A DNA stretch of 51,388 nt from Acidimicrobiaceae bacterium (lineage in GTDB: Bacteria > Actinomycetota > Acidimicrobiia > Acidimicrobiales > Aldehydirespiratoraceae), in contig VXWX01000149.1 in NCBI GenBank assembly GCA_009835735.1, positions 1 through 51,388 of the forward strand, given 5' to 3'. Shown here piece by piece: positions 19,892-36,108 of the stretch (position 1 is its first letter; the number at the start of each line of letters is the position of its first letter). Under the pieces are notes generated by a model that was given only the letters and a program-made list of their open reading frames with translations, did no database searches and was not told where the DNA came from. A program made the translations under genes and the position numbers.

Positions 19892-19923
19892 TCACCTCCG
19901 GCGTGGCTAGCTGCTTGAAGGTT
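19876..19923. terminator. inverted repeat between convergent ligA-like and ligB-like genes (possible terminator)
   Basis: AACTTCAAGC (19876-19885) and GCTTGAAGGTT (19913-19923) are inverted copies separated by 27 bases, spanning the short gap between two convergent stop codons. The loop is long and there is no T-run, so termination is possible but unproven. Confidence 0.35.
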
Positions 19924-20753
19924 CAGGCAGCGGCCGAGAGGTCGTAGGTGGCGATGGTGCAGCCCACCGCGAAGATCGGGACCGGCTGGTAGCAGTGCAC
20001 TGTGCCGGGCGCCCCGGAAGCCGCCGCGCTGATGGCGATGAAGGTGCGGATCTCGAAGGCGCCCTGGCCCGCCTCGGTGTAGACGGACCGGTCGTCGTAG
20101 TCGAGAAGCGCATCGCGGTCGTTGCGGCACCAGCGATCGAGGAAGTCTCGGTCCCAGGCCTCGTTGATCTTCCCTGAGTCGGGGGTAGCCGGCCAGTGGG
20201 AGATCCCGCCGGTCCCGATGACGGCCACACGCTCGGGCACGAGATCGGCGGCCCTCCGGATGGACTCACCGAACGCCCACACCCGCTCATAGGGGGCGAG
20301 CGGAGGGCCCTGGCAGTTGATGTTGACCGGAACCACGGGCAGGTCGTAGTCGGGGGTCAGGAAGTGGAGCGGAACCGCGATCCCGTGATCGAGCTTCCAC
20401 TCCTCGGCGTAGGAGACGTCCGAAGTGCCCATGATCTCGGTGATCAGACGCTGGGACAGGTCTCGATTTCCCGGCACCACGAACCTGTCGATCCCCAGCC
20501 ACCCCGGATCCTCTATGGGCCCTTCGTAGTAGTCGGCCATCCCGATGGCGAAGCTCGGCATGTTGTTCATGAAGAAGTTGCCGAAGTGCTCGGCGGCCAC
20601 GACCATCAAGGCGTCGGGCCGGGAGTCGGCCAGGGCCGCGGCCATCTTTCCGTAGGCGGAGTAGACCTTGTCCCTCACATCCGGATCGGCCTGGTCGGCT
20701 CGTCCGACGATGCCCGGAGCGTGGCTGCAGACTCCAGCGAACACGAGGGCCAT
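19923..20753 (-). CDS. LigB-like class III extradiol dioxygenase catalytic subunit
   Basis: A 276-residue non-heme Fe(II) dioxygenase that cleaves catechol-type rings. By alignment to LigB, the Fe ligands are H11 (CSHAPG), H56 (AEHFGNFF) and E234 (GAFEIRTF); H186 in GTGGISHWP matches the catalytic histidine and H123 sits in DHGIAVPLHFL. The frame is open well upstream on the minus strand, but ATG 20753 is where the family fold starts. It is convergent with the LigA-like gene and divergent from the phytanoyl-CoA dioxygenase-like gene, with only 36 bases between the starts. The substrate is unknown. Confidence 0.88.
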   Translation of the reverse strand: MALVFAGVCSHAPGIVGRADQADPDVRDKVYSAYGKMAAALADSRPDALMVVAAEHFGNFFMNNMPSFAIGMADYYEGPIEDPGWLGIDRFVVPGNRDLSQRLITEIMGTSDVSYAEEWKLDHGIAVPLHFLTPDYDLPVVPVNINCQGPPLAPYERVWAFGESIRRAADLVPERVAVIGTGGISHWPATPDSGKINEAWDRDFLDRWCRNDRDALLDYDDRSVYTEAGQGAFEIRTFIAISAAASGAPGTVHCYQPVPIFAVGCTIATYDLSAAA

Positions 20754-20763
20754 GACCGCAGCG

Positions 20764-20778
20764 TAGACCGCCGGTCTA
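20764..20778. promoter_or_regulatory. 15-bp palindrome between divergent ligB-like and phyH-like starts
   Basis: TAGACCG-C-CGGTCTA is a perfect 7-bp inverted repeat with a 1-base centre, in the 36-base gap between two divergent start codons. Its place and symmetry suit an operator for a dimeric regulator controlling both genes. With so little room, at least one transcript may be leaderless. No regulator gene lies adjacent. Confidence 0.5.
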
Positions 20779-20789
20779 GATTGTCGGCG

Positions 20790-21614
20790 GTGATCTCCGC
20801 TGAAGTGAGGGCTGCTTTCGAGAGCGACGGCGTGGTCAAGATCCCGGGCGCAGTGGACGGCGAGTGGGTGGCGCGGATCCTGGAGGACGCCCAGACGCAG
20901 CTCGATGATCCAGGGCCGTGGGTCACCGACACGAACCCGGGCGCAGCCCAGGACCGCCTGTTCACCACCCGGTACCGCTGGCAGCACGCGCCGGTGATCC
21001 GCGACTTCGTGTTCTCGTCGCCCGTCGCCGCGATGGCCGCTTCGCTCACCGGCTCCGAGAGGATGCGCTTCTACTTCGACCACCTGCTGGTGAAGGAGCC
21101 CCTCACATCGGCGCCTACGCCGTGGCACCAGGACATTCCCTACTGGCCCTTCCTCGGCAGGCAGATCGTGTCGGCGTGGGTCGCGGCCACCAGCAGCCGG
21201 GTGAGCCACAGTTCGCTCGAGTTCGTGAGGGGCTCACACCGTTGGGACGCGTACTACGCGCCTACATCCTTCGACGGCCAGGGTGGCTGGACCGAGGACT
21301 TCAAGGGCGATCCCATGCCGGACGTCGAGGCGGCCCGCGGCCGCTCCGACTGCCCATACGAGATCGTCGGGTTCGACGTCGAGCCCGGGGACGCCATCTT
21401 CTTCTCGGCCTGGATCATCCACGGCTCGCCCGCCAACGAGAGCCGCGAACGCCGGGTTGCGCTGTCCACCCGGTGGCTGGGCGACGACGCCACCTGGTAC
21501 CCGCATCCGGGCTGCGATCCCACCGTCACCCAGGACGACACCACCGCAGCGCCGGGCGCATACCCCGCCGACGATGCGAGGTTCCCGCTCGTGTATGGAG
21601 CCGCTGCCCGCTAG
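20790..21614 (+). CDS. phytanoyl-CoA dioxygenase (PhyH) family Fe(II)/2-oxoglutarate oxygenase
   Basis: A 274-residue 2-oxoglutarate-dependent oxygenase. The Fe ligands are H113 and D115 (TPWHQD) and H211 (WIIHGSP), with R222 the likely 2-oxoglutarate carboxylate ligand. The frame is open far upstream but overlaps the divergent gene, so the start is set at GTG 20790 (TTG 20781 is an alternative); the fold begins there. The stop TAG shares CTAG with the stop of the opposing antiporter gene. PhyH-family members hydroxylate very diverse substrates, so the substrate is open. Confidence 0.87.
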   Translation: MISAEVRAAFESDGVVKIPGAVDGEWVARILEDAQTQLDDPGPWVTDTNPGAAQDRLFTTRYRWQHAPVIRDFVFSSPVAAMAASLTGSERMRFYFDHLLVKEPLTSAPTPWHQDIPYWPFLGRQIVSAWVAATSSRVSHSSLEFVRGSHRWDAYYAPTSFDGQGGWTEDFKGDPMPDVEAARGRSDCPYEIVGFDVEPGDAIFFSAWIIHGSPANESRERRVALSTRWLGDDATWYPHPGCDPTVTQDDTTAAPGAYPADDARFPLVYGAAAR

Positions 21615-23266
21615 GGCTCTTCGGTCTCCATTTGCTCGAGTTCGGCCTCGATCTCGTTCATCAGCACGACCAGGTCGATCACGTCGTGGCTCGTGACCGA
21701 ACCCAGGAATTGGCCGGACTCGCGGTCCAGCACCGGGATCACGGACTGCGAGGCGTTGGTCATCCTCTCCAGTGCGTCTTGGATCGGTTCATCGGGCCAT
21801 GCGACCAGGGTGTTCGGCCGCAGAACGTCCCGCAGCGAGGCGGCTGCCCGCGAGCGCCGGCGTAACGAGCGGTGTCCGGTCGTCGTGACGATTCCGGTGA
21901 CCTCGCCGCCGTCGACGACCAGGTAGTCGTGCTGGTGGGGCGCGGTCCAGGACTCCATGAACTCGGCCACGGAGGTGTCCGGCCCCGGGTACTCGCGTGT
22001 GCTGTCCAGGACGCTTGAGACCTGAACGTCCTGTAGGGCGTACCGGGCGAACGCCGGCGTCACTGAGGCGGGTAGTGGGGAGCGCTCGGACAGCACCGTC
22101 CGCCGGACCGCGAAGTTGATGACGGCCGGCATGAACAGGATGTAGCCGAACATGATCACCACCAGCAACGAGAACACGTCCTCGTCGATCACGCCGGCCT
22201 CAAGAAGGACGAGCAGGAAGGCGATTTCTGCAACGCCCTTGGACATCAGACCGGTCGCCAGCGCGAAGGGTGCGTCGATCCGGGTGACGTACGTGCCGAT
22301 GAAAGCCCCGGCGAACTTCCCGGCCAGAGGCACCAGAACGAGCCCGGCCACTGTGGAGGCGGGTAGATCGATGAAGGACAGGTCGAAGTACAACCCGGCC
22401 GAGGCGAAGAACAGGGGAACGAAGAGGCCCTCGGAGGCGCTGCGCATGCCGGGCATGATGTCGTTGCGCACCCCTTGGGACAGTCCTGACAGGGCTGCAC
22501 CGAACAGCAGTGCCCCGATGGTGCCGTGCAGGCCCATCTTCTCGGCTCCCACGACCATCAGGAAGAGCCCTCCGATGAGAAGGCCGAATGAGAGCTGGGG
22601 AACGTTGACGAGACGCTGCAGGCCGACGATGGCCACCGGCAGCACCTTCGCCGACAGCAGCCAGGCCAGTATCACGAAGCCAGCCATCTTGCCGAGGAGG
22701 GCCAGAACCGAGAGCGCGGTGACGCTGGGGAGGGTCTCGCCGACGGTGAAGCCCACCACGAGTAGCGAGGCGATCTCTGCGATGATCACGATGGTGAAGA
22801 TCTTCAGCCCTATGGGCTGCTTGAGGGTCCCGGAGTCAGACAGGACCTTGGCCGCCAGGCCGAGGCTCGAGAGCGACAGCACCCCGGCCAGCGCCAGCGC
22901 TTCGTTGAACTCCAGACCCAGCCCCAAGTCGATCCCGAAGAGGTCGGAAGTGACCGCCAGGGCCGCCAGCAGCGATATGACGACGGAGATGATGGCTGCC
23001 GCGAAGTACCGGCCCCGGATGGTCACCACGAAGCCCGGGACGTCGATCTCGTCCAGCCCGACGATGAAGAACAGCACGAATATCCCAATCTCCAGGAAGA
23101 GCTGGAGGTCGTGAGTGGGCTCGACCAGCCCGGTAGCGGGACCGAGCAACACTCCGGTCAGCGTGAAGGCGATGATCGAGCTCAGGCCGAAGCGGCCAAG
23201 AGCGCCCTCTAGGAGTTTGGCTACGACGATAAGGAGCCCGATCGGCAGCAGTACGTCCAGTAACAC
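21611..23266 (-). CDS. CPA2-family cation:proton antiporter with C-terminal CBS domain pair
   Basis: A 551-residue membrane protein with about 12-13 hydrophobic helices of the Na+/H+ exchanger (KefB/CPA2) fold: a VLLGPATGL-type first segment, FFIVGLDEID, and GATGLMSKGVAEIAFLLVLLEAG-like elements in the second half. The C-terminal ~110 residues read as a CBS pair (DYLVVDGGEVTGIVTT and VIPVLDRESGQFLGSVTSHD), which may sense adenine nucleotides. The start is set at GTG 23266 because GGGAGGGG lies just upstream and the first helix follows at once; the 57 residues encoded further upstream are Arg/Pro-rich. It exchanges K+ or Na+ for H+; the ion is not determinable. Confidence 0.88.
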   Translation of the reverse strand: MLLDVLLPIGLLIVVAKLLEGALGRFGLSSIIAFTLTGVLLGPATGLVEPTHDLQLFLEIGIFVLFFIVGLDEIDVPGFVVTIRGRYFAAAIISVVISLLAALAVTSDLFGIDLGLGLEFNEALALAGVLSLSSLGLAAKVLSDSGTLKQPIGLKIFTIVIIAEIASLLVVGFTVGETLPSVTALSVLALLGKMAGFVILAWLLSAKVLPVAIVGLQRLVNVPQLSFGLLIGGLFLMVVGAEKMGLHGTIGALLFGAALSGLSQGVRNDIMPGMRSASEGLFVPLFFASAGLYFDLSFIDLPASTVAGLVLVPLAGKFAGAFIGTYVTRIDAPFALATGLMSKGVAEIAFLLVLLEAGVIDEDVFSLLVVIMFGYILFMPAVINFAVRRTVLSERSPLPASVTPAFARYALQDVQVSSVLDSTREYPGPDTSVAEFMESWTAPHQHDYLVVDGGEVTGIVTTTGHRSLRRRSRAAASLRDVLRPNTLVAWPDEPIQDALERMTNASQSVIPVLDRESGQFLGSVTSHDVIDLVVLMNEIEAELEQMETEEP

Positions 23267-23488
23267 GCGACCCCTCCCGGGTAATGGTGTCGAGAGAGTG
23301 AGACGAGAGTACTTCGCTGACTCTGGTCGGGCCGGGTCGGGGACCTGGCGAGCAGATCGTCGGAAGTGCCTCGCATGGCTTTGTGGCGGCACGGTAGGCG
23401 CGCGGCGCGCGCGGGGGTTACTATGTCGCCCAGTCAACGGCCATAGCTAGCCGACGGTTAGATCGCGATACCGAGGAGATGCGGTTCA
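23267..23488. promoter_or_regulatory. divergent intergenic region between antiporter and STAS genes
   Basis: This 222-base region separates two divergent starts and should hold promoters for both. GGGAGGGG before the antiporter GTG and GAGGAG (23473-23478) before the STAS TTG are visible ribosome binding sites. A GC-alternating stretch at about 23398-23413 is followed by TTACTATG. No confident -35/-10 pair was found. Confidence 0.4.
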
Positions 23489-23827
23489 TTGAATATCAGC
23501 ACTGACAGGCAGGGGGGAGCGTTGATAGCGATGGCTGAGGGTCGCGTCGACGGTGCCAACGCCCTCGAGTTCCATGAAGCACTGGAAGCCGCCATCAGCC
23601 CGGACGACACCGGGATGGTGCTGGACTTCGAAGGCATCTCCTATATCAGCAGCGCTGGTTTGCGTGTGGTCCTGCTGGTTGCCAAGACGCTCCAGAAGCA
23701 GAACGCCAAGATGGCCGTCTGCTCGCTGTCCGATTCGATCCGGGAGATCTTCGAGATCAGCGGGTTCGACAAGATCATCCCGGTCCACGGCTCGCGCGCC
23801 GATGCGCTCGCCGGGGTCGGAGGCTGA
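23489..23827 (+). CDS. STAS-domain anti-sigma factor antagonist
   Basis: A 112-residue single-domain protein of the SpoIIAA/RsbV type. VLDFEGISYISSAGLRVVL aligns with the phosphorylation loop of SpoIIAA, and S55 matches its phosphorylated S58; the C-terminal SGFDKIIPVH also matches. In the family, the dephosphorylated protein binds an anti-sigma kinase and releases a sigma factor. The TTG start was accepted because of GAGGAG 10 bases upstream. No anti-sigma kinase or sigma gene is adjacent, so its partner is elsewhere or it acts in another way. Confidence 0.88.
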   Translation: MNISTDRQGGALIAMAEGRVDGANALEFHEALEAAISPDDTGMVLDFEGISYISSAGLRVVLLVAKTLQKQNAKMAVCSLSDSIREIFEISGFDKIIPVHGSRADALAGVGG

Positions 23828-23924
23828 TCACTTCCTGACCTCTCGCTAGGCGACAGGGTTCTTAAGTCCCGTCCAGTTCTCTTCACGCGCGCCCGCGCGG
23901 CCTCTGAGCGGGTACGTTCTCGCT

Positions 23925-24380
23925 ATGGCTGGCGAGAGCGACAGGCGGCCACTGGCTGTGGCCTGGGACGAGGCGCGGGAAGTGCTGGTCGTGGTGCTGC
24001 TGGCCACCGCGCTGCTGCACGTGGTCGCGCCCATGATCCGGTACGCCGGCATCGATCGTCGCTATCCGTGGTGGGACGACCTTCACAGCGCTCTCACCAA
24101 CGTCAACACCCTTACCGGCCTCCTGCTGGTGGGCGCGGCCGTCGCGGTATGCACCACTCCAGCCGACGACATGGTCCCCCGGCTGCGGCAATCGGTCTAC
24201 TGGGCGTCGGTTGTAGTGGCCCTTCTCGGTGTGCTCGCGATCGTCAATGTCCTGTCGGTGCCGTCTGCCGGCGACGCAACCGCAATGCGGCTGGCAGTCG
24301 TGGCCTGGCGCCCAGGACCGGCCGTGTTGCTGTCGGGTTGCGCGGCCTGGATGGCTCGGCGAGTAGTGCTTCTCGGCTAG
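23925..24380 (+). CDS. small four-helix membrane protein of unknown function
   Basis: A 151-residue protein with four hydrophobic segments at about 18-37, 58-78, 91-112 and 125-147. A polar loop with DRRYPWWDDLHSALTN lies between the first two. I do not recognise the family. No catalytic or cofactor motif is visible. Its TAG stop is the first part of a dispersed repeat (CTAGAGGCCGAG), which then fills the gap up to the second nuo operon. The reading frame shows normal third-position GC bias, so it is probably real. Confidence 0.65.
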   Translation: MAGESDRRPLAVAWDEAREVLVVVLLATALLHVVAPMIRYAGIDRRYPWWDDLHSALTNVNTLTGLLLVGAAVAVCTTPADDMVPRLRQSVYWASVVVALLGVLAIVNVLSVPSAGDATAMRLAVVAWRPGPAVLLSGCAAWMARRVVLLG

Positions 24381-24484
24381 AGGCCGAGCTTGCGAGGCCC
24401 CTGGGCCCGAGCGGCCCGTGAGCGCAGCGAACATGAGCGGACAGCAGGCCCGAGCGGCCCGTGAGCGCAGCGAACAAGAGCGGG
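24377..24484 (+). repeat. dispersed repeat, copy 1 (5' arm plus two cores)
   Basis: It begins on the stop codon of the preceding gene with CTAGAGGCCGAGCTTGCGAG, then a core starting GCCCGAGCGGCCCGTGAGCG at 24405-24440 and a second core at 24448-24484, separated by 7 bases. Other copies lie at 37468-37515, 41566-41601 and 44457-44539, with a partial arm at 29667-29678. The cores contain GTG and ATG triplets in the frame of downstream nuoA, so automatic start calls could be misled. Confidence 0.9.
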
Positions 24485-24528
24485 CGGCTGACGCGTCGCG
24501 GGCTGGCTCGACGGTAAGCTTCCGGCCC

Positions 24529-24894
24529 GTGTCGGAGTTCCTGCGCACCTATCTGACCGTCGGCATATTCGGGGCTCTCGGCGCGGTCATCGTGGCCGCG
24601 CTTCTGGGTGCGGGCCGCATCCTGCGACCGTCCCGCCCCACCCCGGCAAAGGTCGAGAACTACGAGTCCGGCGTCGACCCCATCGGGGACATGTGGTCGC
24701 AGGCCAACATCCGCTACTACGTCTTCGCCCTGCTGTTCGTGCTGTTCGACGTGGAGGCCGTGTTCATCTTCCCGTGGGCCGCCCGCCTGGAGGCCTACGC
24801 GCTGTTCGGCCTCGTCGAGATGGCCATCTTCATCTTCATCCTGCTCCTCGGCCTCCTCTATGCCTGGCGCAAGAGGATGCTGAGATGGGTATGA
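24529..24894 (+). CDS. nuoA: NuoA of the 11-subunit complex I copy
   Basis: A 121-residue, three-helix ND3-type subunit of standard length. The loop reads [10 protein letters not shown], with Ser where the other copy has Cys (as in E. coli), followed by [19 protein letters not shown]. The frame is open upstream to 24418, but that part translates the dispersed repeat, so GTG 24529 is preferred; no strong ribosome binding site precedes it. First gene of the second nuo operon; nuoB follows 28 bases later. Confidence 0.9.
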
Positions 24895-24922
24895 GCGCGC
24901 CGAGCTTCGCGGGGGGACACAG

Positions 24923-25423
24923 ATGGGTCTAGTCGAGTCGGGCAAGGTCCCCAAGCCCCTGTCGACGCTGCTCAACATGAGCCGCAAGTACTCGCTGTGG
25001 GTGTACCAGTGGGGCTTGGCCTGCTGCGCCATCGAGATGGGGGCGGCCTTCGGCTCGCCCCGCTACGACGTGATGCGCCTCGGCGTGATCCCCCTGCCGG
25101 CCAGCCCGCGGCAGGCCGACCTGGTGGTGATCTCCGGCACCGTCACCGACAAGATGGCGCCCTCGGTGCGCCGTCTCTACGAGCAGATGCCCGATCCCAA
25201 GTACGTCATCTCCATGGGTTCGTGCGCCAACTGCGGCGGTCCCTACTGGGACAGCTACTCGGTCACCAAGGGGGTCGACCAGATCATTCCGGTCGACGTG
25301 TACGTGCCCGGCTGCCCGCCCCGACCCGAAGCCCTGCTGGAGGGGATCGTCATGCTGCAGGAGCGCATCCAGAACGAGGACATGGGGGAGCGCTGGAGGG
25401 GTGAGCCGATTGTCGTCGACTGA
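24923..25423 (+). CDS. nuoB: NuoB of the 11-subunit complex I copy
   Basis: A 166-residue N2-cluster subunit. Cluster ligands C34-C35 ([10 protein letters not shown]), C101 (MGSCANC) and C131 (PGCPPRPE) are intact, so electrons can reach the quinone region. It diverges clearly from the 14-subunit NuoB. The ATG is preceded by GGGGGGAC. The nuoC start lies 23 bases inside its 3' end. Confidence 0.95.
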
Positions 25424-26090
25424 CGCTGTCGAAGCCGACGCCCCCGCTACCGACGTAGAGGCCGAAGCGCTGCTGGCCCGCCTGCGCGGCGCACTGGGCG
25501 ACGCCGTTGTCGAGTCGCACACGGACCGGGGGGCCGTGTGGGTTCGAGTGGAGCGCGACGCCTGGGCCGATCTCGCCGGCTACCTGCGTCACGAGGAGGG
25601 CTTCGGTTTCTTCAACTTCCTCTCGGCCATCGACTGGATGCCGTCGCCGTTCGGGCGCGACATGGACAGTTCCGTGGACAACGTACTCGATCCTCCCGAG
25701 CCCAAGGAGGCTGCCCCCACCGAGACTGGAGTGGCCGGCGGGGACACCCGATTCCAACTCCTGGCCCGGGTCAACGACGTGACCTCGGGCCGCTCCATCA
25801 TCGCCAAGGCGGACCTGCCCTCCGACGATCTGAGCGCCCCCAGCTGGGTGGCGGTCTACCCGGGCGCCGACTGGCACGAGCGCGAGGCGTGGGAGATGTT
25901 CGGCATCGACTTCGACGGTCACCCCGGGCTGCGCCACATCTATCTCCCCGGCGAGTTCGAGGGGCATCCGCTGCGCAAGGATTACCCGCTGCTGGCCCGC
26001 CGGGTCAAGCCCTGGCCCGGCCTCGTCGATGTTGAGCTGATGCCCGAGACGGACGACGGTGGCGACGCCGGGGAGGGCGCGGCGCCGTGA
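25401..26090 (+). CDS. nuoC: NuoC of the 11-subunit complex I copy
   Basis: A 229-residue 30-kDa subunit. The signature [20 protein letters not shown] and [13 protein letters not shown] is present. Relative to the other copy it has an insertion of about 35 acidic and Pro-rich residues (around 85-120) after the AIDWMPSP strand, and a Gly/Asp-rich tail. GTG 25401 overlaps nuoB; the conserved domain begins about 20 residues later, so a slightly later start is possible. The stop overlaps the nuoD GTG. Confidence 0.92.
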
Positions 26091-27256
26091 CCGTCACCGA
26101 GCGCCAGCAGCTCAGCTATATCGCGGCGCAGGCCGCCGACGCCCGCGTCAACTTGGAGATCGAGACCGAGGGCATGACCCTCAACATCGGTCCCCAGCAT
26201 CCGGCCACCCACGGCACGCTGCGCATCGTGGCCAAGCTCGACGGCGAGCAGGTGGTGGCGGCCGAGCCGGTCATGGGCTACATGCACCGGGGCTACGAGA
26301 AGCTGGCCGAGGTCCGCACCTACCCGCAGGTCACCACATTGATCAACCGCATCGACTGGCTGGGCAGCTTCGCCAACGAAGTGCCGTTCATCCTGGCCGC
26401 CGAGCGCCTCATGGAGGTGGAGGCCCCGCCCCGGGCCCAATGGATCCGCACCATCCTCTTCGAGTTGAGCCGGATCGCCAACATCACGCTGTTCCTGGGC
26501 GACATGGCGGTGCAGGTGGGAGCCATCACTCCGGTCTTCTTCGCCTTCCGCGACCGCGAGCATGTGCTCAACCAGATCGAGGCCGCCACCGGCGGGCGCT
26601 TCCACCCCAACTTCGACCGGATCGGCGGCCTCAAGGACGACCTGCCGGCGGGCTGGGTGGCCGAGACCCGCCAGGCCATGCGCAAGATCCGCCGCTTCTG
26701 CGACGAGATCGAGGAGCTGGTCGAGGGCAACGAGATCTTCCAGGCCCGCACCCGCGGCATCGGCGTGATCCCGCCCGACGTCGGCCTGTCCTACGGCCTT
26801 ACCGGGGCCAACATCCGGGCTTCCGGGGTGGATTGGGACGTGCGCCGGGACAGCCCGTGCGGGCTGGTCCACGATCAGGTCGACTGGAAGGTGTGGACCC
26901 ATCCCGACGGCGACTCGTTCGCGCGGTTCTGGGTGCGCATGCAGGAGACCAGGGAAGCCACCAAGATCGTCGACCAGCTACTCGACGGGATCCCGTCGGG
27001 GCCGATCATGGCCAAGGTGCCCGTCATAATCAAGGTGCCCGCGGGCGAAGCCTATGTCGAGACCGAGAACCCGCTTGGAGTGATGGGCTACTACGTCGTG
27101 TCCAAGGGGGACCTGAACCCGTTCCGGGTGAAGATCCGCTCGGCGTCGTTCTCCAACGTCTCGATCACTCCGTGGCTGCTCAAGGGGGTCTACGTTCCCG
27201 ACATCATCACCATCCTGGGAAGCCTCTACTTCATCCTCGGAGACATCGACCGATGA
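26087..27256 (+). CDS. nuoD: NuoD of the 11-subunit complex I copy, altered quinone site
   Basis: A 389-residue 49-kDa subunit of full length, ending GDIDR. Of the quinone-site triad only H42 (THGT) is kept: the Tyr position is W91 (RIDWLGS, TGG at 26357-26359) and the Asp position is Q143 (AVQVGA, CAG at 26513-26515). Spacing from H42 (49 and 101 residues) is the same as in Thermus Nqo4 H38/Y87/D139, so the alignment is firm. R68 (MHRGYEK) matches the arginine methylated by NDUFAF7 in mitochondrial NDUFS2. The C-terminal half also departs from the usual GDCYDRY motif (GDSFARF). GTGA overlap with nuoC. Confidence 0.95.
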   Translation: MTVTERQQLSYIAAQAADARVNLEIETEGMTLNIGPQHPATHGTLRIVAKLDGEQVVAAEPVMGYMHRGYEKLAEVRTYPQVTTLINRIDWLGSFANEVPFILAAERLMEVEAPPRAQWIRTILFELSRIANITLFLGDMAVQVGAITPVFFAFRDREHVLNQIEAATGGRFHPNFDRIGGLKDDLPAGWVAETRQAMRKIRRFCDEIEELVEGNEIFQARTRGIGVIPPDVGLSYGLTGANIRASGVDWDVRRDSPCGLVHDQVDWKVWTHPDGDSFARFWVRMQETREATKIVDQLLDGIPSGPIMAKVPVIIKVPAGEAYVETENPLGVMGYYVVSKGDLNPFRVKIRSASFSNVSITPWLLKGVYVPDIITILGSLYFILGDIDR

Positions 27257-28284
27257 TCGGCGTGCTGTCGGAGCTGTCCTACTGGCAGGTCACCTCGATC
27301 AGGGTGGGGGCGGGCCTAGTGGCCGTGCTGTTGGTGGCCGGCACGCTGGTCTACGCCCACCTGTTCAAGATGGTGAGCTTCATGCAGAGCCGGCTGGGCC
27401 CCATGGAGGCCGGCCCCTACGGTTCGCTTCAGCTCATGGCCGAGATCGGTAAGTTCCTCCAGAAGGAGGACATCGTTCCCCGCCGGGCCGACCGCTTCGT
27501 GTTCAAGGCCGCCCCGTTCGTCGTTCTGACCTCCACGTTCCTGCTGCTGGTGGTGCTTCCGGGAGGTCCGGACGCATGGTTCATCTCCAACGACCTGGGG
27601 ATCTACCTGGCAATGGCCGTCAGCTCGGTGTCCGTCATCGGGATCCTCATGGCCGGCTGGGGCTCAGCGTCGAAGTACTCGCTCCTCGGCGGGCTGCGGG
27701 CCACCGGCCAGCTCATCGCCTACGAGCTGCCCCTGCTGCTGGCGGTGGTCGGGGTGGTCATCCAGGCCGAGACCATGAACCTCCAGGAGATCGTGCTGGC
27801 CCAGGCCAACGGCGAGATCTTCGGCTGGGGGGCGATCGGAAACCCGTTCATCATCACCCAGTTCGCCGGCTTCATCATCTTCATGATCGCCATGCAGGCC
27901 GAGCTGACCCAGACCCCGTTCGACATGCCGGTGGCCGAATCAGAACTGGTCACCGGCTACATGACCGAGTACTCGGGCCTGCGGTTCCTGCTGTTCTTCA
28001 TCGGGGAGTTCGCCACCGCGGGCGTGTTCTCGGCTATCGCCGCAGTGCTGTTCCTGGGCGGCTGGTACGTGCCCGGCCTCGACCCGGCCGACAACCTCTT
28101 CAACGTGATCGGACCGCTGGTGCTGTTCGGCAAGGTGGTGGTCCTGACGTTCCTGGTCTTCTGGGTCCGGTTCACCTTCCCCCGCTTCCGCGAGGACCAG
28201 CTCCAGCGCCTGGCCTGGAAGTTCCTGGTGCCGCTGGCCCTGGCCAACATCGTGGTCACCGGCGTGCTCAAGGTGGTGGTGTGA
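27253..28284 (+). CDS. nuoH: NuoH of the 11-subunit complex I copy, missing conserved charges
   Basis: A 343-residue ND1-type subunit. The scaffold is clear ([35 protein letters not shown]), but several family charges are changed. The ER of helix 1 is L37-F38 (AHLFK against WFERK), the Asp of LAD is E64, AELNRPPFD is AELTQTPFD, and the first glutamate after PFD is V227 (E251 in the other copy). These residues line the quinone chamber and E-channel in known structures. The frame is open upstream through nuoD; ATG 27253 overlaps the nuoD stop. Confidence 0.93.
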
Positions 28285-28826
28285 TGAGTCTCGTACCCGG
28301 GCTGGTCAAGGGCCTGAAGGTCACCGGCACGACGGTCGTGCGGACGGTGTTCCCCAAGCGGGGGATGCGCACGCTGATGCCGGCGCCTTCCAAGGGCGCG
28401 GCCACCGTGCAGTACCCCCACGTCAAGGAGGCGCCCCCCACCCGGGCCCGGGGCGTGATCGCCCTCCACGAGGGCAACTGCACGGCCTGCATGCTGTGCG
28501 CCCGCGAGTGCCCGGACTGGTGCATCTACATCGAGGGCCACAAGGAGAAGGCGCCACCCCGCCGTGCCGGCGGCAAGCCCCGCCAGGTCAACATCCTCGA
28601 CCGCTTCGACATCGACTACGCGCTGTGCATGTTCTGCGGCATCTGCGTCGACGTGTGCCCCTTCGAGGCGCTGTTCTGGAGCCCCGAGTACGAGTTTTCC
28701 GAACCCCGCATCGCCGACCTGCTCCATGACATGTCGCGCCTGTCGGAGTGGATGGAGACCGTGCCCGAGTTCGAGGACTACGAGTCGGGGTCGGTGGCCA
28801 AGAAATTGAAGGTGCCGCCGACATGA
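28284..28826 (+). CDS. nuoI: NuoI of the 11-subunit complex I copy
   Basis: A 180-residue ferredoxin-type subunit with two [4Fe-4S] motifs, [15 protein letters not shown] and [12 protein letters not shown]. In the absence of NuoEFG, these clusters would be the entry point for electrons, for example from a reduced ferredoxin. The N-terminus is basic ([15 protein letters not shown]...) and the tail is acidic. ATG 28284 overlaps the nuoH TGA (GTG 28281 is an alternative). Confidence 0.93.
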
Positions 28827-29362
28827 CGCCGGCGGGCGTGCTGGCTGCGGGCGCTGCGAGCGGCGACCTATTCGTCGCGCAGAACGTCTTCTTCGGCGTG
28901 ATCGCGCTGGTGATGATCGTGTCCGCCATCCGGTGCGTGACCACCCGCAACGTCGTGCATGCCGCCCTGTGGCTGGTGCTGGTGCTGGCCGGCGCGGCGG
29001 CCCAGTTCATCCTGCTGGGCTCGGAGTTCGTGGCTGTCACCCAGGTGCTCGTCTACATCGGCGCCATCATCGTGCTGTTCCTGTTCGGGATCATGCTCAC
29101 CAAGGCCTCGATGGGCGACGACGACTCGGTGGCGGGCGAGAAGCGGCTCATGGCCGGCCTGGTGGCCGTGCTGCTGGCCGTGGTGATGGGCATCGCCCTC
29201 GTCGACAGCTACTCCGACACCCGGGTTGTGATCGACGAGCCCCAGCGCTTCGCCGCGGTGTCCGACGCCATCTTCAGCCAGTACATAGTTGCCTTCGAGG
29301 CGGTGTCGGTGCTGCTGCTGGCCGCCCTGATCGGCGCCATCGTCGTGGCCCGCAAGGAGTAG
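28823..29362 (+). CDS. nuoJ: NuoJ of the 11-subunit complex I copy
   Basis: A 179-residue ND6-like subunit with five hydrophobic helices. [14 protein letters not shown] and [19 protein letters not shown] match helices 2 and 3 of the family. The ATG overlaps the nuoI stop by four bases (ATGA). Confidence 0.92.
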
Positions 29363-29370
29363 GGCCGGCC

Positions 29371-29670
29371 GTGATCCTCAACCAGTTCCTCCTGCTTGCT
29401 GCGATCCTGTTCTGCATCGGCGTGTACGGCGTGCTGGCCCGCCGCAACGGGATCATGGTCCTGATGTCGGTCGAGATCATCCTCAACTCGGTGAACATCA
29501 ACTTGGTGGCCTTCGGGGCCTTCCGCGACCATGTGGCCGGCGAGGTGTTCGCCCTGTTCGTGATCGCAGTGGCCGCGGCCGAGGTGGGCATCGGCCTGGC
29601 CATCGTCCTGCTCATCTACCGCAACCGACGAAGCATCGACCTCACCGAGGCCGATCTGCTCAAGGGCTAG
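29371..29670 (+). CDS. nuoK: NuoK of the 11-subunit complex I copy
   Basis: A 99-residue ND4L-like subunit of standard size, with the two conserved glutamates in [13 protein letters not shown] and [11 protein letters not shown]. The start is set at GTG 29371; the open frame upstream lies within nuoJ. The TAG stop is part of CTAGAGGCCGAG, the arm of the dispersed repeat. Confidence 0.92.
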
Positions 29671-29678
29671 AGGCCGAG
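29667..29678 (+). repeat. dispersed repeat, copy 2 (5' arm only)
   Basis: CTAGAGGCCGAG overlaps the nuoK stop codon exactly as the arm of copy 1 overlaps its upstream stop; the match with copy 1 extends two bases upstream (GGCTAGAGGCCGAG). The core is not present. It could be a remnant or a coincidence. Confidence 0.45.
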
Positions 29679-29683
29679 GGACC

Positions 29684-31855
29684 GTGAACATGCTCGCCGC
29701 CGCGCTCGCCGCCGCCGAGGAGACTGTCGCCTACGGGCCCAGCTCCGTCGACAGCGCCGGCTTCTTCCTCGACTTCGCCTGGCTGGTGCCGCTGCTGCCC
29801 GCCCTGTCGTTCGCGGGGATCCTGCTGTTCGGCAAGCGGCTGCCCCGCAAGGGATCCGAGCTCGGGGTCGCCGCGGTGGCCGGCTCGTTCGTGCTGTCCC
29901 TGGGAGCGGCGATCACCTGGATCGGCCATCGAGACGAGGCCCACGAGGGCGTCGCGGCCGTGCACCGCACGGTGGGCTGGCTCGACTGGGGCGGCATCAC
30001 CTACGACGCGGGCATCCTGCTCGACGGCCTGTCGGTGATGATGCTGTTCGTTGTGACCGCGGTGTCGCTGCTGGTGCACATCTACAGCACCGACTACGTG
30101 GCCGGCGACGCCCGCTACACCCACTTCTTCGCCTTCCTGAGCCTGTTCACCGCGGCGATGCTGTTCTTCGTCCTCAGCGACAACCTGCTGCAGATGATCG
30201 TCGGCTGGGAGCTGGTCGGCGTGTGCTCCTTCGTGCTTATCGGACACTGGTGGGAGGACAAGGCCAACTCCGACGCCGCCCTCAAGGCCTTCTTCACCAA
30301 CCGGGTCGGCGACATCGGCCTGCTGGTGGGCGTGTCGATCCTGTTCTTCGCCGCGGGCCGCACCTTCGACACCCTGACGCTGTCGGAGCGCATCAACGCC
30401 GGGGAGGTGAGCCACACCGCGCTGGTGGTTGCGTCGCTGTGCCTGCTGGCCGCGGTGATGTCCAAGTCCGGCCAGTTCATCCTGCACACCTGGCTGCCCG
30501 ACGCCATGGCCGGGCCCACGCCGGTGTCCGCGCTCATCCACGCCGCCACCATGGTGGTGGCCGGGATCTTCATGGTGGCCCGCCTCTACCCGGTGTTCTG
30601 GGAGGGGATGTCGATCGCCGGTTCGAGCATCAACGTGCTGGCCCTGGTCGGGGCGGTCACCCTGCTGTTCGGCGGGATGCTGGCCTTCACCCAGAACGAC
30701 ATCAAGAAGGTGCTGGCCTACTCCACCGTCAGCCAGCTCGGCTACATGGTGATGGCCCTCGGTGTGGGCGCCTGGACCGCGGCCATGTTCCACCTGTTCA
30801 CCCACGCCTTCTTCAAGGCCTGCCTGTTCCTGGGGTCGGGCTCGGTGAGCCACGCGGTGCACAGCTTCGACATGAAGACCGACATGGGCGGGCTCCGCAA
30901 GGTCATGCCCCACACCTACCGCACGTTCCTGGTGGCGACGGTGGCGCTGATGGGTCTGCCCCCGCTGGCCGGGTTCTGGTCCAAGGACGAGATCCTGGCC
31001 GGCACCGGCGGCTGGGGCCTGTTCGGCGGCACCCACGGCAACGGCAACTACACCCTGATGCTGGTGATGGGCATGGTGGGCGCGGCGGTGACCGCGGCCT
31101 ACATGACCAGGGTTGTGTACCTCACATTCTTCGGCACCTACCGGGGCCACGGCCATCCCCACGAGTCGGGGCCCCGCATCCTGGTGCCGCTGTACGTGCT
31201 GGCCTTCTTCGCGGTGGTGGCCGGGCTGTTCAACATGCCCAAGGGCTTCCAGCTGTGGCCCGAGGCGTGGCAGGAGCGCTTCGGCCACTACGTCGAGCCG
31301 GTGGCGGCCTACTTCCCGGCCATCGGCCACGCCAAGCCCAGCTGGTCGCTGGCCGTCGTCTCGGTGCTGGTGGCCCTGATCGGCGCCGGCCTGGCCTGGC
31401 GCTACTACTTCAAGGGCGTGCACCAGCGCTCGGAGGCCGCTGGGAAGCAGTTGACCGAGATCGACGACGGACCGGTCTCGCGGGGCGGGCTGCCCCGGGC
31501 GATTCACACCGCGCTGGTCAACAAGTACTACTTCGACCACCTCTACACCGACGTGATCGTCAAGGCGGTCAAGGGTCCGCTGGCCAAGGCCACCTACTGG
31601 TCCAACCAGCGCGTCATCGACGGCGTCGTCAACGAGGCCGGCCGTCAGTCGGTGGCCGCGGGCCGGGCCGTGTACGACCACATCGACCAGACCCTCATCG
31701 ACAGAGTCATCGTGGACGGCTCGGGCCGGGCCTCCGACAGCGCCGGCGAGAACCTCAGAGGTATGCAGACCGGCAAGGTCCAGCAGTACGCCGCCATCCT
31801 GTTCGCGGCCGCGACCATCCTCGCCGGCGTGTTCATGCTCATCCTGTCGCTGTGA
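29684..31855 (+). CDS. nuoL: NuoL of the 11-subunit complex I copy
   Basis: A 723-residue ND5-like pump subunit, about 100 residues longer than the other copy. VGWELVGVCSFVLIG and SKSGQFILHTWLPDAMAGP hold the conserved Glu and Lys of the proton channel. The extra length lies in the loop and lateral-helix region after residue 560, followed by a C-terminal helix. The start is GTG 29684 (ATG 29690 is an alternative) after AGGCCGAGGG. A 49-base gap precedes nuoM. Confidence 0.94.
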   Translation: MNMLAAALAAAEETVAYGPSSVDSAGFFLDFAWLVPLLPALSFAGILLFGKRLPRKGSELGVAAVAGSFVLSLGAAITWIGHRDEAHEGVAAVHRTVGWLDWGGITYDAGILLDGLSVMMLFVVTAVSLLVHIYSTDYVAGDARYTHFFAFLSLFTAAMLFFVLSDNLLQMIVGWELVGVCSFVLIGHWWEDKANSDAALKAFFTNRVGDIGLLVGVSILFFAAGRTFDTLTLSERINAGEVSHTALVVASLCLLAAVMSKSGQFILHTWLPDAMAGPTPVSALIHAATMVVAGIFMVARLYPVFWEGMSIAGSSINVLALVGAVTLLFGGMLAFTQNDIKKVLAYSTVSQLGYMVMALGVGAWTAAMFHLFTHAFFKACLFLGSGSVSHAVHSFDMKTDMGGLRKVMPHTYRTFLVATVALMGLPPLAGFWSKDEILAGTGGWGLFGGTHGNGNYTLMLVMGMVGAAVTAAYMTRVVYLTFFGTYRGHGHPHESGPRILVPLYVLAFFAVVAGLFNMPKGFQLWPEAWQERFGHYVEPVAAYFPAIGHAKPSWSLAVVSVLVALIGAGLAWRYYFKGVHQRSEAAGKQLTEIDDGPVSRGGLPRAIHTALVNKYYFDHLYTDVIVKAVKGPLAKATYWSNQRVIDGVVNEAGRQSVAAGRAVYDHIDQTLIDRVIVDGSGRASDSAGENLRGMQTGKVQQYAAILFAAATILAGVFMLILSL

Positions 31856-31904
31856 CCCCCCAGAACGCAATCCCCCAGTACCCAGGAGCTTCGAGGACCT
31901 AGTT

Positions 31905-33452
31905 ATGACCGACTTTCTCAACGATTGGGGCCTCACCCTGGTCACCTTCGTCCCGCTGGCCGGGGCGCTGGTGATGATGGCGGTCCCCTCCGCCGAGGAG
32001 AAGGCTCTCAAGCAGTTGGCCCTGCTGTCGTCGCTGCTGGCGATGGTGATCGGCGGCCTGCTGCTGATCGACTTCGACTACGGCAACGCCGGCGCCCTGC
32101 AGTACGTGGTCGACGCCCGCTGGATCGAGGTGATCAACAGCCGCTACATCCTCGGCCTCGACGGCATCTCACTGCCGCTGATGGCCCTGACGCTGGTGGT
32201 GGTGCCGCTGTGCGTCATCTACTCGTGGGACCACATACCCGAGCCCGGCAACCCCAAGGCGTTCTTCGTCCTCATGCTCATCCTCGAGACGGGCATGGTG
32301 GGCACCTTCGTGGCCCAGGACCTGATCCTGTTCTTCGTGTTCTTCGAGGTCGTGCTGCTGCCCATGTTCTTCATGATCGCGGTGTGGGGCGGCGAGAACC
32401 GGCGCTACGCGTCGATCAAGTTCTTCCTGTTCACGCTGTTCGGCTCGGCGCTGATGCTGCTGTCGTTCCTGGCGCTGTTCTTCCTGTCGACCGATCCGGC
32501 CACCGGCGAGTCGCTGCGCACCTTCGACATGCGGGTCCTGTCCGACGTGGCCGGCGCGGGCATCCTGGGCGCGACTCAGATCTGGATCTTCGCGGGCATG
32601 TTCATCGGCTTCGGGGTGAAGGTGCCGATGTTCCCGTTCCACACCTGGCTGCCTGACGCCCATACCGAGGCGCCCACGGTGGGGTCGGTGATCCTGGCCG
32701 CCATCCTGTTGAAGCTCGGCACCTACGGTTTCGTGCGCATCGCGGTGCCGATGCTGCCCGAGGGCGCGGAGGCGTGGGCGCCGTGGATCGGGCTGCTGGC
32801 TGTGATCGGCATCATCTACGGCGCGTTGGGATGCCTGGCCCAGACCGACATGAAGCGCCTGATCGCGTTCTCGTCGGTGGCGCATATGGGCTTCGTGATG
32901 CTGGGCATCGCCACCCTCACCGACTTCGGGATCAACGCCGCCATCTTCGGGATGGTCGCCCACGGGATCATCACCGGGATGCTGTTCTTCCTGGCCGGCT
33001 CGGTGAAGGAGCGCTACCACACCCTCGAGATCCGCCGCCTGGGTGGGATGCTGGTCCAGGCGCCCCGGATGGGCTGGATCCTCGGGTTCTGCTCGATGGC
33101 GTCGCTGGGCCTGCCGGGTCTGGCCGGCTTCTGGGGCGAGTTCCCGGCCATCCTGTCGGCCTACTCGCCCGCCGAGGGCCTGCCGGTCGAGACGTTCCGG
33201 ACCTACATGGTGGTGGCCGCGGTGGGAACGGTGCTGGCCGCGGGCTACCTGCTGTGGCTGCTGCAGCGCACCGCCATGGGCGCGCCCAGAGAGGAGTTCG
33301 CCGACAGCGACGAGATCGTCGACGTGACCCGCACCGAGTGGATCGCCTGGGCGCCCCTGCTGGTCGGGATCCTGCTGTTCGGCCTGGTGCCGGGACTGAT
33401 CTTCGATGTGACCGACCCGGCGGTGGTCGGCCTGCTGGCGACCGGAGGCTGA
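31905..33452 (+). CDS. nuoM: NuoM of the 11-subunit complex I copy
   Basis: A 515-residue ND4-like pump subunit. FFEVVLLPMFFMIAVWG and GVKVPMFPFHTWLPDAH contain the channel Glu and Lys; the long hydrophobic core is complete. AGGAG lies upstream of the ATG at 31905. The three pump subunits of this copy all keep their proton-channel residues, in contrast to its NuoD and NuoH. Confidence 0.95.
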   Translation: MTDFLNDWGLTLVTFVPLAGALVMMAVPSAEEKALKQLALLSSLLAMVIGGLLLIDFDYGNAGALQYVVDARWIEVINSRYILGLDGISLPLMALTLVVVPLCVIYSWDHIPEPGNPKAFFVLMLILETGMVGTFVAQDLILFFVFFEVVLLPMFFMIAVWGGENRRYASIKFFLFTLFGSALMLLSFLALFFLSTDPATGESLRTFDMRVLSDVAGAGILGATQIWIFAGMFIGFGVKVPMFPFHTWLPDAHTEAPTVGSVILAAILLKLGTYGFVRIAVPMLPEGAEAWAPWIGLLAVIGIIYGALGCLAQTDMKRLIAFSSVAHMGFVMLGIATLTDFGINAAIFGMVAHGIITGMLFFLAGSVKERYHTLEIRRLGGMLVQAPRMGWILGFCSMASLGLPGLAGFWGEFPAILSAYSPAEGLPVETFRTYMVVAAVGTVLAAGYLLWLLQRTAMGAPREEFADSDEIVDVTRTEWIAWAPLLVGILLFGLVPGLIFDVTDPAVVGLLATGG

Positions 33453-33459
33453 CGCCCGG

Positions 33460-34989
33460 ATGCTCGGTTCGGTCTCGACGCTGGTCGTCGCCTTCGAGCG
33501 GCCTGCGATCGACTGGCACGCGATCGCGCCCGAGCTGACCCTGCTGGGCTTCGGGGCCCTGCTGACGCTGGTCGACATCCTCTGGCTGGAGCGGGGGAGG
33601 GCGGTGGTGTCCGCGCTGGCGTCGTTCGGGCTGCTGGCCTCGATGGTGCCGGTGCTGACCCTGGCCTGGGACGGCGCCGACCGGTCCACCTTCTGGGGGG
33701 CCTACGTGGTCGACGACTACTCGTTGGTGATGAAGGCCGTGTTCCTGCTGGCCGGCTACGTGGTGGTGCTGCTGTCCACCAACTACATCGCCGAGGGCGA
33801 CTACTGGGAGAACGAGTACTACCAGATGCTGCTCTCCGCGGTGCTGGGCATGGTGGTGATGGCCTCGGCCCGCGACCTGGTGACCATCTTCGTGGCCCTG
33901 GAACTGCTGTCGATCCCGGCCTACCTGATGGCTACCTGGCGCAAGCGGGACCTGCGCAGCAACGAGGCCGGCCTCAAGTACTACCTGATGGGGGTGTTCG
34001 CCTCCGCGGTGCTGCTCTACGGCATGTCGCTGCTGTACGGGGCGGCCGGTTCCACGATGCTGGTCGACATCGACGCGGCCATCTCGGGCGACGGCGCGCC
34101 GCTGGCGGTGGTGACGCTGGGCGTGATCTTCGTGGTGGTCGGCTTCGGCTTCAAGGTGTCGGCGTTCCCGTTCCACACCTGGGCGCCCGACACCTACGAG
34201 GGCGCGCCCACGCCGGTGACCGCGTTCTTGTCGGTGGCGTCGAAGGCGGCCGGGTTCGTGGCCCTGCTGAGCCTGGTGTTCGTGGGCTTCTGGGGGCGGG
34301 CCGATGTGTACCAGCCGCTGATGTGGGTCCTGGCTGCGGCGTCGATGTTCGGCGGGAACCTGATGGCGCTGCGCCAGACCAACGTGGTGCGCCTGCTGGC
34401 GTACTCGGGGGTGGCCCAGGCCGGCTACATGCTGGCTCCGCTGGCGGTGGCGGGGGAGTCGCTGGCGACGGCCGACGACGCCCTGTCGTCGGTGGTGACC
34501 TATCTGGCCATCTACGCGGCCATGAACCTGGGGGCCTTCGCAGTGATCATCGCGGTGGCCCGCCGCACCGCCTCGGCCGAGATCGACACCTACAAGGGCC
34601 TGTTCCGCTACTCGCCCGGCCTGGCCGTGGCCATGACGATCTTCCTGATGGCCCTGGCCGGCATCCCGCCCCTGGGCGGCTGGTTCGCCAAGTTCGAGAT
34701 CGTGCTGGCCCTGATCTCCCCGGGCACGGCCTGGGGAGTGGCCCTCGGCGTGATAGTGGCCATCAACTCGGTGATCGCCCTGTACTACTACGCCCGCATC
34801 GCAAGCCACATGTGGGCAGAAGCCCCCCCGGAGTCAGCGGACTTCGACACAGCCACGCCCATCAAGACCCCCGCCTCAGTCTCAGCCGCCCTGGTCCTAA
34901 CCGGCGCGGCCACCCTGGCCTTCGGCATCCTCCCCCAATGGGTGGGCCACTTCACCGATGTAAGCCTGGTAGCCGCCCTAGCAGGCTGA
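33460..34989 (+). CDS. nuoN: NuoN of the 11-subunit complex I copy
   Basis: A 509-residue ND2-like pump subunit. LELLSIPAYLMATWR and GFKVSAFPFHTWAPDTYEGA are the channel motifs. It starts 7 bases after nuoM. It is the last nuo gene; the methyltransferase gene begins 27 bases downstream. From about 34800 codon usage shifts towards more A-ending codons, which is local and does not affect the frame. Confidence 0.95.
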   Translation: MLGSVSTLVVAFERPAIDWHAIAPELTLLGFGALLTLVDILWLERGRAVVSALASFGLLASMVPVLTLAWDGADRSTFWGAYVVDDYSLVMKAVFLLAGYVVVLLSTNYIAEGDYWENEYYQMLLSAVLGMVVMASARDLVTIFVALELLSIPAYLMATWRKRDLRSNEAGLKYYLMGVFASAVLLYGMSLLYGAAGSTMLVDIDAAISGDGAPLAVVTLGVIFVVVGFGFKVSAFPFHTWAPDTYEGAPTPVTAFLSVASKAAGFVALLSLVFVGFWGRADVYQPLMWVLAAASMFGGNLMALRQTNVVRLLAYSGVAQAGYMLAPLAVAGESLATADDALSSVVTYLAIYAAMNLGAFAVIIAVARRTASAEIDTYKGLFRYSPGLAVAMTIFLMALAGIPPLGGWFAKFEIVLALISPGTAWGVALGVIVAINSVIALYYYARIASHMWAEAPPESADFDTATPIKTPASVSAALVLTGAATLAFGILPQWVGHFTDVSLVAALAG

Positions 34990-35016: not shown

Positions 35017-36108
35017 GTGACTCTCGGGGCGAGGATCGCTCGGCGGATCGGGGAGTGGGGGCCCATTCCGGTCTCGGAGTATGTTGAGGCTTGCCTCTAT
35101 GACGCAGACGGCGGGTTCTACATGCGGCCCCATGGGGGGCGGGCCGGGGGGCACTCGGGGCACTTTCTGACTGGGCCGGAGGTGGGTCCGCTGTTCGGGG
35201 CAGTGCTGGCCCGGGCGCTGGACGCATGGTGGGCTGAGTTGGGTGAGCCTGATCCATTCACGGTGATTGACTGGGGGGCAGGGCCGGGCACGCTGGCCCG
35301 CTCGGTGCTGGCCTCCGAGCCGGGCTGCATGGCCGCAGGCGCGCTACGGCTGGTGCTGGTGGAATTGTCGCCCGCGCAGCGAGCCCTGCATCCGGAGCAT
35401 CCGTTGGTGGCGAGCGTGGCCCGGGTGTCGGACGCGCTGCCCCAGGGCACGTCTGCAGGAATAATCGTGGCCAACGAGCTGCTCGACAACATGCCCTTCG
35501 ACGTGGTTCGCCGCACTGCCGGCGGCTGGGAGGAGCTGCGGGTCAACGTCGAGGAGGGTGTCGGCGGCCGCTTCTCGTTGGTGGCGATGCCCGCATCCCC
35601 GGAGTTGGTCGCCGGGTTGCCGGAGGTTGCGGCGGGGGCACGGGTGCCGGTTCAGCGAGCCGCTCGCAGTTGGGTGGCGGAAGCCCACCGGTTGCTCGGG
35701 AGGGGCCGGGTCGTCGCTCTCGACTACGGAGCGGCCACCGACGTGCTGGCCGAGCGGGCTGGCCGGTCGGATGATCCTGCGGCCGGGCTGGGCTGGCTAC
35801 GCACACATCGGGACCACGATGACGGCTCCTGGTGGCTGGCCGATCCAGGATCGTGCGACATCACCGCGGACGTGGCACTCGACCAGGTGCAGGCCGACCT
35901 CCGGGCCGATGCATGCACCCAGGCCGAGTTCCTGAGGGGCTACGGCATCGACGAACTAGTGGCCGAGGGTCGGACAGCATGGGCCGAAAGGGCCGGCGTC
36001 GGCGACCTCGACGCCCTCCGGGCCCGCAGCCGGACTAGCGAGGCCGAGGCCCTGCTTGACCCGGCCGGCATGGGCTCCTTCAGCGTTCTCGTCTGGCCCG
36101 TCGATTGA
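35017..36108 (+). CDS. midA: MidA/NDUFAF7-type SAM-dependent methyltransferase (putative complex I assembly factor)
   Basis: A 363-residue protein of the DUF185/MidA family. Family marks: GHFLTGPEVGPLFG near residue 48, the SAM motif DWGAGPGTLARSVL near 87, a VLVELSPAQ strand, and ANELLDNMPFDVV near 152. Human NDUFAF7 symmetrically dimethylates Arg85 of NDUFS2, the NuoD homologue, early in complex I assembly. Here the gene follows nuoN of the 11-subunit operon, whose NuoD keeps the equivalent arginine (R68). NuoD as substrate is inference from family and context. The GTG start has no strong ribosome binding site. Confidence 0.85.
   Translation: MTLGARIARRIGEWGPIPVSEYVEACLYDADGGFYMRPHGGRAGGHSGHFLTGPEVGPLFGAVLARALDAWWAELGEPDPFTVIDWGAGPGTLARSVLASEPGCMAAGALRLVLVELSPAQRALHPEHPLVASVARVSDALPQGTSAGIIVANELLDNMPFDVVRRTAGGWEELRVNVEEGVGGRFSLVAMPASPELVAGLPEVAAGARVPVQRAARSWVAEAHRLLGRGRVVALDYGAATDVLAERAGRSDDPAAGLGWLRTHRDHDDGSWWLADPGSCDITADVALDQVQADLRADACTQAEFLRGYGIDELVAEGRTAWAERAGVGDLDALRARSRTSEAEALLDPAGMGSFSVLVWPVD

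Follow-up and report, generated by a model that had tools for sequence, protein, structure and literature searches.

The window analysed here, a 51,388-nucleotide stretch of DNA from an assembly of 3.29 Mb that is 84% complete, contains two nuo operons. The second (nuo2, encoding Nuo2) occupies positions 24418–34989, where nuoA, B, C, D, H, I, J, K, L, M and N lie together as the gene set of an 11-subunit complex I (Table 1). NuoD2 has its best NCBIfam matches among NuoD-type families (best E 5.5e-124) and its best PDB match in Thermus Nqo4 (2fug_4, E 1.6e-98). It scores 397 bits against the NuoD family TIGR01962, below the cut-off of 459.35, and passes the related NF004739 (389 bits, cut-off 360); NF008974 is the best-scoring family at 413.8 bits, yet below its cut-off of 522, and FpoD (324.3 bits) is below its cut-off of 600. 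The nearest relatives of NuoD2 in named records are MAGs titled Acidimicrobiaceae or Acidimicrobiia, with 97–99% identity.

The genes A–D, H–J and L–N are all present in 54 of the 55 named-record loci with enough sequence (nuoK is outside this count), and no match to NuoE, F or G was found inside the operon span in 80 named-record loci. The key residues compared in NuoL, NuoK and NuoA of the window are all retained and the NuoB cysteines are present, so the view of the earlier note that the complex looks intact holds. Nuo2 is best read as an 11-subunit complex I paralogue without the NADH module, which is widespread in Actinomycetota and usually occurs alongside the 14-subunit enzyme. NuoL2 is about 100 residues longer than NuoL1 (723 versus 625 aa). 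Between the two nuo operons (19923–24380) lie genes for a LigB-type dioxygenase (minus strand), a Na+/H+ exchanger with a CBS domain (minus strand), a STAS protein and a 151-aa protein without any Pfam family.

In the following, NuoD sequences are named by the residues at positions 91 and 143 of NuoD2 (W/Q, W/E), and W-type and Y-type refer to position 91.

Table 1. Genes of the second nuo operon and codons of nuoD2 discussed in the text.
Feature	Position	Strand	Remarks
nuoA2	24418..24894	+	Pfam PF00507, E 5.8e-35
nuoB2	24923..25423	+	cysteine motifs present
nuoC2	25401..26090	+	family profile match
nuoD2	26087..27256	+	389 aa, quinone-site subunit of second complex I; intact ORF
His42 codon	26210..26212	+	Thermus H38, mammalian H59; H in 251/253, one X, one gap
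Arg68 codon	26288..26290	+	NDUFS2 Arg85 (NDUFAF7 target); R in 207/207 W sequences with a letter
Trp91 codon	26357..26359	+	Thermus Y87, mammalian Y108; W 208, Y 45 of 253
Asp139 codon	26501..26503	+	Thermus T135, mammalian T156; acid in all 103 W/Q (Asp 101, Glu 2)
Gln143 codon	26513..26515	+	Thermus D139, mammalian D160; Q in 103 W/Q, E in 105 W/E
Leu330 codon	27074..27076	+	Thermus R350; mammalian K371 by constant offset of 21
Tyr381 codon	27227..27229	+	Thermus D401; mammalian D422 by constant offset of 21
nuoH2	27253..28284	+	
nuoI2	28281..28826	+	two CxxCxxC motifs
nuoJ2	28823..29362	+	start uncertain; open frame, J2 matches in relatives' operons
nuoK2	29374..29670	+	start uncertain; E36/E72 kept
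nuoL2	29684..31855	+	seven key residues checked, all kept
nuoM2	31905..33452	+	profile match; alignable with NuoM1
nuoN2	33460..34989	+	profile match
MidA/NDUFAF7-family methyltransferase (PF02636)	35017..36108	+	directly downstream of nuoN2

Residues of the headgroup pocket and their distribution

H42, W91 (+49) and Q143 (+101) of NuoD2 align with H38, Y87 and D139 of Thermus Nqo4 with no gap between them, which bears out the residues and spacings first reported for this gene. NuoD2 keeps the His of the His-Tyr-Asp headgroup triad and carries Trp for Tyr and Gln for Asp. The alignment also confirms that the 14-subunit NuoD1 of the same window (5712–7001) keeps His, Tyr and Asp, with H/H/Y/D at the corresponding columns.

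The distribution of these residues was followed in 253 aligned sequences (208 W, 45 Y), drawn from the phylum sample, from named records and plasmid records, from the window itself and from 14-subunit copies; ten more NuoD1 give a set of 263. The sequence counts include near-copies, with the window's own genes entered twice, and the distinct sequences compared are 135 W and 35 Y. Beyond Actinomycetota, the sampling covers Thermus and five plasmid records. Trp and Gln are found in 80/80 named-record relatives (82–99% identity; the best 80 of at least 577), which are mostly titled Acidimicrobiia, Acidimicrobiales or Acidimicrobiaceae and in some cases only Actinomycetota or 'bacterium'; L043 is the sole locus among them with X at both His columns. 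Because both residues recur in all 80 relatives, an assembly error, which the earlier note had allowed for, is excluded; a pseudogene was rejected on the same ground.

A NuoD-like match is present in 315 of 396 Actinomycetota genomes. The best 150 NuoD places in these genomes (L084–L153 and L190–L269) comprise 126 of W-type, 22 with Gln and 104 with Glu, and the remaining 24 have Tyr. Of the 30 best-matching loci in the phylum sample, 22 are W/Q, the window's own included, and 8 are W/E; in a set of 40 loci, 25 are W/E. The spread is patchy: among 28 genomes of the same order with a NuoD match, 17 are at W-type scores and 11 below. Judged from these alignments, Trp is a clade-wide mark, Gln is limited to one branch and most members of the clade have Glu at the Asp site. 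The idea that W and Q are fixed across the clade therefore stands for W, and for both residues within the branch, and fails for Q outside it. One W/Q NuoD with 81% identity (L089, contig C498) occurs in a genome of another family in the phylum (G141, 640 contigs), by transfer or contamination.

A tree of 83 NuoD representatives was computed with columns 91, 139 and 143 removed, by a quick search with SH-aLRT support only and without an inferred root; L173, L168, L135 and L136 form long branches. The exchange between Tyr and Trp needs one change on this tree (SH-aLRT of the W branch, 99), as do the W/Q group (100) and a Y/N group (100). Given that canonical NuoDs all have Tyr, the simplest reading of this unrooted tree is that Trp arose once, with Glu at the Asp site as the common state of W sequences and Gln as a later single event. 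Glu for Asp, a conservative exchange, is also found in the 14-subunit NuoD1 of 9 of 10 genomes tested.

Four residues ahead of Q143, position 139 is Ser (102) or Val (3) in the 105 W/E sequences, and Asp or Glu in 103/103 W/Q sequences, which rules out a plain loss of the acid in the W/Q branch. The corresponding Thermus positions 135 and 139 are on the same helix in solved structures; in an AlphaFold model of NuoD2 with a mean pLDDT of 53.5 (shallow alignment), residues 115–143 lie in one helix. An acid occupies exactly one of the two positions in each of the 263 NuoDs, Thermus-139 only in 153 and Thermus-135 only in 110, with both acidic in 0 and neither acidic in 0. The acid site has shifted twice independently on the tree, and a separate Tyr-keeping clade has Asn at Thermus-139 and Asp at Thermus-135 in 7/7 members (L129, L130, L153, L258, L260, L262 and L263). 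Because so few events underlie the pattern, the 263-sequence counts are not independent support. As far as the alignment tells, the carboxylate of the W/Q branch is displaced by one helical turn, not lost. The original statement that NuoD2 has lost two of three triad residues is thus correct in that Trp and Gln are real, and overstated because a carboxylate is found one turn earlier throughout the branch.

A second feature of the pocket concerns a charge pair. In mouse complex I, T156, K371, D422 and V424 are among the residues around a proposed water site next to the piericidin headgroup, and D160 is named as a partner of His59 (PMC7567858). The K371 and D422 columns agree in carrying or lacking charge in 261/261 sequences with letters at both. 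The tree requires three changes of the pair, each of them concordant, and a sign test cannot reach 0.05 at three; in these sequences the pair comes and goes as a unit, a strong pattern that nevertheless reflects few events.

The change of the headgroup pocket proposed for NuoD extends to NuoB and NuoH, for which the Citrobacter proteins of L173 served as the numbering reference. NuoB2 has Pro59 (codon 25097–25099) in place of the canonical Arg (bovine NDUFS7 R77, human R73), which is described as near the quinone tunnel in bacterial complexes (PMC4938201). Every one of the 94 distinct W/Q rows has Pro in this column, the 19 W/E rows have Pro (12) or Ala (7), and 27/31 Y-type rows have Arg. In NuoH2, the columns of E. 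coli R37 and E216 are occupied by Phe38 and Val227, respectively. The R37 column holds Phe (78) or Leu (12) in most of the 105 W/Q rows, about six of which resemble 14-subunit NuoH and were assigned by distance; it holds His 13, Leu 7 and Met 1 in 21 W/E rows, and Arg in 17/18 Y rows. At the E216 column, 99/105 W/Q and 20/21 W/E rows have Val or Ile, and 16/18 Y rows have Glu. NuoH E36 is seemingly lost in five W/Q rows inspected and retained in W/E rows. Two Y-type relatives, L133 and L137, share the NuoB Pro, and one of them, L137, the NuoH Val as well, so that the NuoB and NuoH changes may predate Trp. At the level of sequence, the quinone headgroup pocket of this widespread complex I paralogue is the site of a real, fixed and structured remodelling. 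NuoB2 also has an extra Cys and Trp within a 14-residue stretch, nearly fixed in the W clade.

Electron input and the neighbouring methyltransferase

All ten W genomes tested also have a NuoD1, which retains His and Tyr and has Asp or Glu at the acid site. A NuoF match is absent in at least seven W genomes (G070, G103, G124, G167, G215, G307 and G021), all of which have a heme-copper oxidase. Six of these, 94–100% complete, have a single NuoD match (E 1e-20); G021 has a second NuoD-like match and was left out of the single-NuoD set. G167, the sole one of the six inspected, contains the nuo2 cluster with A–D, H–J and L–N. Since these genomes have no NuoF match, six of them having a single NuoD and all an oxidase, Nuo2 is more than a spare part for Nuo1. 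In none of the seven could NuoEFG be borrowed from a 14-subunit enzyme, and such borrowing was rejected as a general rule.

PF04432 (FpoF/FrhB type) is found in 84/126 W genomes versus 68/270 others (Fisher p 5e-15, kinship ignored), counted at E < 1e-10, which covers 152 of the 173 matching genomes. The window's assembly (G000, 84% complete) has no PF04432 match, nor do 41 other W genomes, including G023 and G062, each a single contig rated 100% complete; F420 as a universal donor is thus unsupported. No redox partner is evident among ten genes tested in the NuoD2 flanks of L167, L174, L176, L182 and L184. By elimination, ferredoxin would be the default donor of Nuo2.

The PF02636 domain of the gene behind nuoN2 scores 109.3 bits (cut-off 23.3) and is the only PF02636 match in the window's 84% complete assembly. 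Where a named-record locus includes nuoN2 and extends at least 1.5 kb past it (53 loci), a PF02636 gene directly follows nuoN2 in 37, is further downstream in 7 and is not in view in 9. It is within 1 kb of nuoD2 in G023, G334 and G204, within about 3 kb in G307 and G062, and on another contig in G146, G177 and G200; in G167 the nearest copy is at least about 16 kb past the nuo2 cluster, and the NuoD2-bearing G010, G226 and G289 have no PF02636 match. The link between PF02636 and nuoD2 is not fixed, as these last genomes illustrate. Human NDUFAF7 dimethylates NDUFS2 Arg85, where Thermus has Thr (PMC3829151). At this site NuoD1 of the window has Thr (YLHTG), and Tyr-type NuoDs have Thr (26) or Arg (29). 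With Arg68 in NuoD2 and Thr in NuoD1, NuoD2, not NuoD1, would be the candidate target in the window's cell, and Arg68 is a possible methylation target of the product of the PF02636 gene.

Function of the second complex

Our preferred reading, to which we assign a probability of roughly 0.6, is that NuoD2 belongs to an 11-subunit Nuo2 without the NADH module that is proton-pumping, quinone-reactive and not fed by NADH, and whose pocket was rebuilt in steps. Such a complex would most likely still pump protons and react with a quinone, probably menaquinone, and would receive electrons from ferredoxin or, in some hosts, F420H2. D139 would take over as the partner of the conserved His. Trp91 should still be able to hydrogen-bond a quinone carbonyl and unable to donate a proton like Tyr; protonation of the quinone would therefore need His42 together with the acid, whether displaced or retained, unless a quinol anion forms first. 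A further proposal, which we put forward tentatively, is that this class of complex I couples redox chemistry to pumping without the pocket Tyr as proton donor, and that one branch preserves function by sliding the carboxylate that partners the His by one helical turn. If true, the pocket tyrosine is not essential to the coupling mechanism of complex I.

Alternatively, Nuo2 may run in reverse or use another acceptor, with proton motive force and quinol driving the formation of reduced ferredoxin (or F420H2) and the pocket tuned to quinol oxidation or to a non-quinone carrier. The operon span of the named-record loci without a matched NADH-module gene, the 14-subunit NuoD that is also found in the ten W genomes tested, and the disappearance of Tyr and several pocket charges all suit such a role. 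In Y. lipolytica, all Tyr variants were essentially unable to reduce the long quinone Q9, with near wild-type Vmax for Q1 and Q2 (PMC7567858), which could also mean a non-quinone acceptor in Nuo2. However, the six genomes with a sole Nuo2-type NuoD, no NuoF and oxidases suit forward respiration too, and sequence does not tell apart a different quinone, another direction and another acceptor, the options of the earlier note; we consider this reading unlikely.

We regard as improbable that the Trp and nearby changes let the complex work despite piericidin-like Q-site antibiotics. Piericidin binding involves Tyr108, Asp160, Val424 and Phe425, with a weaker contribution from Thr156, and the presence of Trp in the piericidin source S. 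mobaraensis has been remarked on (PMC7567858); the W/Q type differs from Thermus at every one of these columns. Trp is, however, fixed in the whole sampled clade, including named relatives such as Ca. Microthrix, and NuoD1 in the same cells keeps Tyr (10/10 tested), so that NADH oxidation would not be protected from the inhibitor. Resistance would also fail to explain why the NADH module is absent and why NuoB and NuoH have changed. Even less credible is that Nuo2 is an Fpo-like F420H2 dehydrogenase, as suggested for the Ca. Actinomarinales paralogue (PMC7771536), since the enrichment of PF04432 in W genomes, which favours it, is offset by the genomes that have no match, the window's own and the complete G023 and G062 among them.

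Comparison with known systems

The pocket Tyr has been called strictly conserved in a review, which also reports models where it protonates the quinone together with the His/Asp pair (PMC8119997). The complex that includes NuoD2 resembles the Thermus and mitochondrial enzymes (Nqo4, NDUFS2) in sequence family, both pocket His residues, the NuoB cysteines and the tested pump residues. It differs in having no E, F or G in the operon, in Y87W, D139Q with T135D, R350L and D401Y of NuoD, in the Arg-to-Pro exchange of NuoB, and in the replaced R37 and E216 of NuoH (E. coli columns). The NDUFAF7/MidA system (PMC3829151) is paralleled by the PF02636 gene beside the operon and the conserved Arg68, and differs from the W clade in that NuoD2 occurs in three genomes without a PF02636 match.

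Trp in place of Tyr108 has been noted in S. mobaraensis (PMC7567858), an identical substitution at the identical site; where that paper mentions it, it stands with piericidin production and is not tied to a paralogue clade. We read this protein as probably the nuoD2 product of the W clade. Streptomyces has a nuo2 set without E, F and G and a separate nuoD2, whose function is called unclear, perhaps as a hybrid with the first complex (PMC9239103, published in 2022; PMC8388888). Nuo2 of the window likewise lacks E, F and G, and a detached nuoD2 also occurs in two g53 genomes (L174 and L176; g53 is probably Streptomyces), but the g53 nuoD2 is W/E whereas that of the window is W/Q. Ca. Actinomarinales are actinobacteria related to the window's host by class membership. 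They have an 11-gene nuo paralogue without EFG beside a fuller nuo operon, for which F420 was suggested (PMC7771536); by description only, this is like the arrangement here, with EFG missing and a fuller nuo operon nearby.

In the openly accessible literature searched, we found no account of a Trp shared by the whole clade, of the shifted acid or of the rule for the charge pair, whereas Trp in S. mobaraensis and the EFG-less nuo2 paralogues are already in print. The W clade offers a starting point for work on the Streptomyces nuo2 cluster and hints at a possible bacterial target of NDUFAF7-type enzymes. As a fixed natural Tyr-to-Trp clade, with the acid displaced in one branch, it makes the role of the Tyr testable by comparison instead of by damaging mutants, aided by an ordinary NuoD in the same cell (ten genomes tested).
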